In this document: positions 17,811 to 42,281 of the stretch, piece by piece
How the letters are laid out: each line of letters opens with the position of its first letter
How positions within the stretch are numbered: the stretch's first letter is position 1
NCBI GenBank assembly: GCA_016841965.1
Contig: JAEANN010000017.1
Location: 62,001-126,000 of the forward strand
Direction: 5' to 3'
Length of the DNA: 64,000 bases
Origin: Candidatus Roseilinea mizusawaensis
GTDB lineage: Bacteria; Chloroflexota; Anaerolineae; J036; Brachytrichaceae
The notes under the pieces: generated by a model
The model's input: the letters and a program-made list of their open reading frames with translations, nothing else
The model's database searches: none
Told to the model about the DNA's origin: nothing
Made by a program: the position numbers and the translations under genes

Positions 17811-18072
17811 CGCATGTCTCCTCAGAAAAATGAACTCGCCCGCCGCGGCAACGAAACCGTATTTCGCTGCCGAGGACGGGCGGTGCAAGTGCCGCTCGCG
17901 GTGCCACCTCGGTTGAGCGCGCTTTGACTGCGCCCCGCTTCACTATTCACCAGGGCCTGCCCTCGCCGGTTCCACTTCGCGCACCATGCCGGCATCGGCT
18001 TGCACCCACCGCCGACTCGCTGTCGCTTGCGCATGGCCCTACTTGTCACGGGTCGCCGGGACTATCCCTGGC
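17811..18072 (-). promoter_or_regulatory. T-box leader of trpS (tRNA-Trp-sensing)
   Basis: Read on the minus strand, the leader contains in order an AGTA loop-E element, the distal stem I motif GGTGGGTGCAAGCC, a candidate specifier TGG (17972-17974, in GAAGTGGAACC), the T-box core GAGGTGGCACCGCG (17897-17910), and a terminator hairpin (about 17828-17882) ending in TTCATTTTT. CCGAGG in the T-box can pair with CCTCGG of the terminator's 5' arm to form the antiterminator. The specifier matches Trp, the product of the gene. Confidence 0.9.
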
Positions 18073-18093: not shown

Positions 18094-18293
18094 CCGGTTG
18101 CCTGACAGATTTCAAAACAGCGACTGATCGTCTGTGTCCGCTTAGCGGTTCGTCTCATCGCGGCGCGGGGCGCGCTGCGGGGTCAAATTGCCCAGCGCTT
18201 GCCGGCCTTGTCCTCGAGGCCGGCGACCGCGCGTAGTACGCGCGTAGTACGCGCGTAGTACGCGCGTAGAGTGCAAATCTGTCAGGCGACCGG
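18094..18293. mobile_element. MITE-like element, copy 1
   Basis: A 200-bp non-coding element bounded by 19-bp terminal inverted repeats (18094-18112 and 18275-18293, 18 of 19 matching) with core CCTGACAGATTT. Inside it carry an AAAACAG...CTGTGT stretch, a near-palindromic GGCC...TCCTCGAGGCC module and an 11-bp tandem repeat. A second, diverged copy lies in the opposite orientation at 42026-42261. No transposase gene or clear target-site duplication is seen. Confidence 0.75.
18229..18269. repeat. 11-bp tandem repeat inside MITE copy 1
   Basis: GCGCGTAGTAC occurs three times in perfect tandem (18229, 18240, 18251), plus an 8-base partial unit. It is absent from copy 2, so it expanded locally. 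Confidence 0.85.
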
Positions 18294-41918: not shown

Positions 41919-42025
41919 GTGTCATGCCCCATAGGGACAAGTATACGGACAAATAGGGACCAAGCGCACAAAGCGATTGCCGTCCTTTGAGATTGCGTTT
42001 GACTGAATGATCTTTTGTCTGGCCA

Positions 42026-42261
42026 CCTGACAGATTCCCACGACGCCCCGGTGGCCGGCCTCGAGGACGAGGCCGGTCAGCGCTGGCAATCGGCTCTCGC
42101 GCCGCGTCTGCGCGCCGCGTCCGCGCGGCGCAACCCGCTTACGCCCGGTGGCCGGCCTCGAGGACGAGGCCGGCGAGCGCTGGCAGTCCGCTCTTGCGGC
42201 GCGATGCAACGAGCCAGTAAGCAGCACACAGGCAATCCATCACTGTTTTCAAATCTGTCGG
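42026..42261. mobile_element. MITE-like element, copy 2
   Basis: About 236 bp, bounded by CCTGACAGATT (42026) and AAATCTGTCGG (42251), sharing the TIR core GACAGATT. Its reverse complement follows copy 1 at 18094 through AAAACAG, CTGTGT, GCTTA, CATCGC and the CCTCGAGGCCGG palindrome. A module of about 97 bp, including GGCCTCGAGGACGAGGCC, is tandemly duplicated here. It lies just after the S9 peptidase stop and has no coding capacity. Confidence 0.75.
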
Positions 42262-42281
42262 ATAGCTGGAAGTGATGACTG

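Follow-up and report, generated by a model that had tools for sequence, protein, structure and literature searches.

A probable species-specific family of MITE-type elements with repeat-built, GC-rich interiors in Candidatus Roseilinea mizusawaensis

The window analyzed here, the whole stretch of 64,000 nucleotides from Candidatus Roseilinea mizusawaensis, holds two copies of a repeated element. Copy 1 lies between trpS and the gene of an FtsH-like AAA/M41 protein, and copy 2 is flanked by a GH10 gene and an S9 peptidase gene. The initial annotation reported no transposase nearby, and none was seen in our scan of these four flanking genes. The features are listed below; C12:70709-71078 denotes a further copy on contig C12 of the same genome.

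18094-18293, minus strand: element copy 1, 200 bp; its left end according to the family consensus is 18293
18094-18112, no strand assigned: terminal inverted repeat of copy 1, the element's right end
18275-18293, no strand assigned: terminal inverted repeat of copy 1, the element's left end
18201-18224, no strand assigned: core palindrome of copy 1, GCCGGCCTTGTCCTCGAGGCCGGC
18228-18269, no strand assigned: tandem repeat of copy 1, 11-bp unit, 3.8 copies
42009-42018, plus strand: half of a target duplication, GATCTTTTGT, left of copy 2; partner GACCTTTTGT at the right end of the C12 copy
42019-42269, plus strand: element copy 2, 251 bp; flanks apparently swapped with those of C12:70709-71078
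42047-42106, plus strand: core module of copy 2, first unit of a tandem duplication spaced 97 bp
42144-42203, plus strand: core module of copy 2, second unit, 90% identical to the first
42270-42280, plus strand: half of a target duplication, AAGTGATGACT, right of copy 2; partner at the left end of the C12 copy

Copy 1 was initially described as a 200-bp element with 19-bp terminal inverted repeats (TIRs), which we confirm; its two 19-nt arms (18094-18112 and 18275-18293) are complementary at 18 of 19 positions. The second copy, first placed at 42026-42261, is real, and its ends reach further, to 42019 and 42269. The end motifs of copy 2 are CTGACAGATT at 42027-42036 and CCGACAGATT at 42252-42261 (minus strand), with just 13 of 19 positions complementary between its two 19-nt ends. 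As had been proposed, the two copies are oppositely oriented and share modules, with an alignment that covers the core and the right half. Both also contain the palindrome, whose 18-bp center occurs with one mismatch in copy 1 (18204-18221) and exactly, twice, in copy 2 (42057-42074 and 42154-42171); with up to three mismatches allowed, 0.12 occurrences are expected in the window by chance. TIR-like sites with up to one mismatch number 8 in the window against 2.5 expected, a count reached in none of 100 shuffles. The internal tandem duplications differ between the copies, also as first noted: copy 1 has the 11-bp unit, and copy 2 has the 60-bp stretch repeated 97 bp apart together with a 13-bp unit present 2.3 times. 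The peptide LVLEAG is indeed a translation of the palindrome, and open reading frames of about 100-150 amino acids run through copy 2.

On the trpS side, the right TIR of copy 1 contains CTGTCA 18 bp upstream of a TATAAT (18108 to 18079, minus strand), a pair found at one site against 0.1 expected. The TATAAT of trpS is conserved in two genomes of the same genus, G001 and G002, and the sequence upstream of it is not. Judged from these motifs, the TIR of copy 1 may supply a candidate −35-like CTGTCA for trpS. A T-box-like leader was also observed upstream of trpS (17869-18065, minus strand; RF00230, 43.1 bits against a gathering score of 93, E 3.8e-8).

The host genome (G000) is a 3.86-Mb draft of 59 contigs, MAG-like and 99% complete; it is the one genome of the species that was searched, and no recent movement of the element was seen in it. 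A genome-wide search for the TIR and the core found many further copies. The 18-bp center of the core, with up to two mismatches, has 38 matches, of which 20 are forward and 18 reverse; the reversed control has 1 + 0. The exact terminal motif CYGACAGATTT occurs at 31 sites (15 + 16), with 0 + 0 in the control. BLAST with one simple copy gave 62 matches in its own genome. Counted by hand, the family amounts to about 35 loci. Both ends were located at 12 of these and one end at others by end profiles and by reading; about 12 loci retain just the left end, about 7 just the right end, and 4 nothing but the core. More than half have one recognizable end or none, and some terminate at contig edges. 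Cores without recognizable TIRs are found at C20:50734, C36, C41:4422 and C42, and TIR ends without a core match at some loci, for example C16 and C30.

The family ends are TAGCCACCTGACAGATTT...AAATCTGTCGGGTAGCTA, in general form 5'-TA(G)CCACCTGACAGATTT...AAATCTGTCGGGTAGCTA-3'. By eye, the consensus order is the left end TAGCCACCTGACAGATTTCCACTACGCCCGGT, the core CGCCGGCCTCGAGGACGAGGCCGGCGAGCGCTGGCAATC, GC-rich units such as GCTCTCGCGCCGCGTCC, and then GATGCAACAAGCCGGTAAGCAGCACACAGGCAATCAGTCACTGTTTTCAAATCTGTCGGGTAGCTA. In eight two-ended copies the terminal inverted repeats pair at 13-18 of 19 positions. The two-ended copies measured are 119-879 bp long, are built of repeats and contain no transposase gene, as fits MITEs, for which an upper length of about 500-1000 bp is taken. 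The DNA strand is strongly self-complementary (z of −10.5 and −4.0), and Rfam holds no family for the element. The GC content of most copies is 0.54-0.73, in contrast to most MITEs.

Tandem Repeats Finder identified units of 11, 13 and 17 bp within copies, along with longer units of 87-162 bp. The 879-bp copy on C41 has five left ends in tandem, and contigs C17, C36, C40, C42, C43 and C53 end in arrays of the element. The start of C53 and the end of C42 have a common 50-bp array unit and the two contigs are adjacent in G002, so the array probably broke the assembly at this point. Two copies on C34 (C34:123348-123466 and C34:260233-260455) both have an internal second left end beside the palindromic repeat GGGACAGGCTTTCCAGCCTGTC, suggesting that the composite was mobilized as a whole.

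Outside the host the element was hardly met. The exact core was present in 1 of 60 genomes searched, namely the host itself, and absent from the 59 others. Among 28 genomes of the family, BLAST matches were obtained in two, the host and G006, the latter with a single match of 26 bp. This match to the core (G006:C57) lies inside an apparent coding sequence, which we take from its reading frame to be a DAHP-synthase gene, and is probably due to chance. The left-end 16-mer was found in 3 of 396 genomes of the class, host included; the single TIR sites in the other two (G386 and G128) are chance-like, and by eye the stretch showed no second TIR or element-like interior. A TIR match in a Krumholzibacteriia contig, judged from one displayed stretch, is likewise chance-like. 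Viral contigs gave no TIR match and a blastn search of plasmids gave no match. The searches for the core and the 16-mer used exact patterns and would overlook diverged relatives. A literature search on MITEs in Chloroflexi and in Anaerolineae returned nothing specific.

The flanks of seven two-ended sites and 23 single flanks were sought in G001 and G002, and some were not found. None of the 22 gaps between flanks in the relatives (16 loci) matches the element (E<0.01). In 20 comparisons the gap is shorter than in the host, and the two longer gaps are those of C18 and C30, both in G001. The orthologous site of copy 1 lacks the element in both relatives and measures 101 bp in G001 against 352 bp in the host. 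Four copies lie between direct repeats, which measure 12 bp both at C50 and at C12:94825, 11 bp at C45:273412 and 10 bp at C34:123348; as terminal bases may be shared, each of these lengths could be off by one or two. The target at C34:123348 is single in G001 (GGCGCGCATC) and double in the host, with GGCGTGCATC on each side of the element. When flank pairs that are neighbors in the relatives were scored, 8 of 10 reached 4 or more; among 399 other pairs, 8 did so (Fisher p=3e-11). The two without a duplication are C44 (score 0) and copy 1 of the window (score 3, no clear target duplication). Two cross pairs, C53:126 with C18 (score 8) and C44 with C12:46750 (score 7), receive no support from gene order, since the C18 and C44 flanks are contiguous in the relatives. 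Copy C12:94825 sits between two paralogous genes about 75% alike (C12:93069-96043).

The initial annotation read the element as MITE-like. Both further genomic copies and empty sites in relatives were looked for, and both exist; with the 10-12 bp target duplications and the empty sites in two genomes of the same genus, they support this reading. A partner transposase is the one MITE feature that was sought and not found. We conclude, with a probability of about 0.88, that the element represents a species-specific family of non-coding, non-autonomous MITE-type elements of about 120-880 bp. There is no need of a host function to explain the family. After insertion, the GC-rich interior, comprising the core palindrome and the 13- and 17-bp units, would have grown by slippage or unequal crossing-over into minisatellites and into tandem arrays of greater length. 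Recombination between copies would have exchanged flanks at least once, between copy 2 and C12:70709-71078.

The evidence for this exchange is as follows. The own flank pairs of copy 2 and of C12:70709-71078 score 0 each. Across the two loci, 11 of 11 positions agree between the right flank of copy 2 and the left flank of its C12 counterpart, and 9 of 10 between the left flank of copy 2 and the right flank of that counterpart; copy 2 lacks a target duplication of its own, which the swap of its flanks would explain. G002 has the S9 peptidase gene joined to the gene left of the C12 copy on contig C270, and the GH10 gene joined to the gene right of that copy on contig C134; on either side the conserved blocks span about 0.8-1.5 kb. 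Since the flanks joined in G002 belong to different host copies with matching duplications, it is the host and not G002 that would carry the exchanged order. G001 is uninformative for this pair: there the contig carrying the C12-left gene has a different continuation. The loci beside the orthologous breakpoints in G001 (G001:C23 and G001:C37) have a common gene tail, and G001 therefore appears to be rearranged at this place as well.

A second set of flanks is permuted three ways. G001 joins C41-left to C53-right, C53-left to C40-right and C43-left to C41-right, the last two joins being present also in G002. In the host, C41-left adjoins C41-right and C53-left adjoins C53-right, while C43 and C40 end in arrays; a C43-C40 join would close a three-way cycle. 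Both sets, the two-way and the three-way, are accounted for by simple homologous exchange between copies, and the chromosome appears to have been reshuffled with the elements as swap points. MITEs are stated to be sites of homologous recombination in a review (PMC10969869).

The swaps could instead be misjoins of the draft assembly at repeated elements, which would still be MITEs. In favor of this are the six contigs that end in arrays, among them both contigs needed for the three-way closure. The arrays share exact stretches of 52-76 bp, up to 76 bp within the three-way set. For Porphyromonas gingivalis, repeats are reported as places of misassembly, and a difference is reported at a BrickBuilt MITE (PMC5771137). 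The three-way permutation is less certain for this reason, that arrays may be misassembled. For the pair of copy 2 and the C12 copy, misassembly is argued against by the shortness of the longest exact stretch in common, 50 bp, the two copies being 251 and 370 bp long. This pair is assembled inside 137-kb contigs, where ordinary read lengths should resolve it, and both reciprocal junctions are present. Taken over both sets, we regard misjoining as unlikely, with an appreciable share of the probability left to it.

A transposase with matching ends was sought by searching the genome for PF13546 (DDE_5, IS701) and PF01609 (DDE_Tnp_1) and by inspecting TIR sites, and none was found. PF13546 had no match in the genome, and PF01609 had one, C1:871-1533, which contains an in-frame stop and was rejected as the parent since it has no CTGACAGATTT-like ends. 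As no transposase with matching ends turned up, we infer insertion by a DDE transposase acting in trans. Its source would most likely be an IS4-type element, now gone from the genome or missing in the draft. Such a putative parent would fit the 5'-NA end, here TA, and a duplication length close to one helix turn, the IS4 family duplicating about 10 bp (PMC2266710).

Several copies carry identical tetranucleotides at both ends (CTAG, CTGG or CCGG), as would be left by an element with a 4-bp target like IS701 or, for TA, by one like IS630. The tetranucleotides differ between the two ends at C50, C44 and C34:260233, and IS701 is described as duplicating 4 bp and IS4 one helix turn (PMC2266710). 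We dropped this reading because longer direct repeats, of 10-12 bp, were seen outside the tetranucleotides and the one at C34:123348 is single in G001, and we now consider it improbable.

It is more improbable still that the core palindrome is itself the mobile or functional unit, a binding site or a REP in a REP/BIME-like family to which the TIRs are secondary. In such families the dispersed unit is a 20-40 bp palindrome tagged GTAG or CGTC and accompanied by a RAYT (REP-associated transposase). The cores without recognizable TIRs and those in tandem arrays would suit this, and GTAG-type REPs have been reported in Chloroflexi (PMC3733652). What disfavors it is that the target duplications lie outside the TIRs and not at the core; there are also the loci with TIR ends and no core match, and by eye no GTAG/CGTC tag was recognized beside the core. 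That these are repeats arisen by chance, or immobile low-complexity GC-rich DNA, has a negligible probability, for all that the interior is GC-rich and repetitive, given 31 TIR sites against none in the reversed control, the empty sites and the target duplications.

Among known elements, the closest to this MITE-type family is the BrickBuilt MITE of P. gingivalis, so that the family is new and its kind already known; the comparison is one of architecture, a MITE containing a minisatellite, and no sequence membership is claimed. BrickBuilt is described as species-restricted and intergenic, with no transposase remnant reported; its minisatellite is enclosed by a leader and a tail that bear short inverted ends (PMC4596501). 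That minisatellite has a 23-bp unit in 1 to 22.8 copies, and 19 element copies are given, many without one end (PMC4596501). The host family differs in its longer ends (about 18 bp), in its 10-12 bp duplications, where those of BrickBuilt vary in length among elements and one is 2 bp (PMC4596501), and in its interior, which is GC-rich and combines a palindromic core with repeat units of 11, 13, 17 and 87-162 bp. The TIRs of BrickBuilt are said to resemble resident IS elements (PMC4596501), whereas the host family is without a known partner.

With the IS4 family the elements share duplications of about one helix turn (10-13 bp in the IS4 subgroup) and 5'-NA ends; they differ in having no transposase and in a terminal TAGCC in place of the -AATR given for subgroup IS4 (PMC2266710). 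QMITE1 and QMITE2 of Coxiella and Chunjie of Geobacter are similarly dispersed, variable in size and often truncated, with TIRs and direct repeats (PMC10969869). The duplications of QMITE2 are 7-9 bp, compared with 10-12 bp here, and no minisatellite is mentioned for these elements as far as that source describes them (PMC10969869). Correia, RUP and other TA-target MITEs are also small, TIR-bearing and non-coding, with TA termini (PMC2229807). The Correia/RUP-type elements are characterized as A+T-rich, and RUP as using IS630-type TA targets (PMC2229807), whereas the host family is GC-rich and has the longer duplications.

In summary, one draft genome displays stages in the life of a MITE that usually have to be guessed, namely insertion, minisatellite growth and flank exchange, the last of which is readable from target duplications now split over two loci in an unusually clear record. 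The family also explains contig breaks in this genome, and the draft gene order at such arrays needs checking. More tentatively, and with somewhat less than an even chance in our estimate, the GC-rich left half may be an amplification module and the arrays recombination hot spots, through which the chromosome of one lineage was reshuffled by one two-way and one three-way exchange, the sister species being without elements. If this is true, the swapped target duplications would be a readable record of every exchange.
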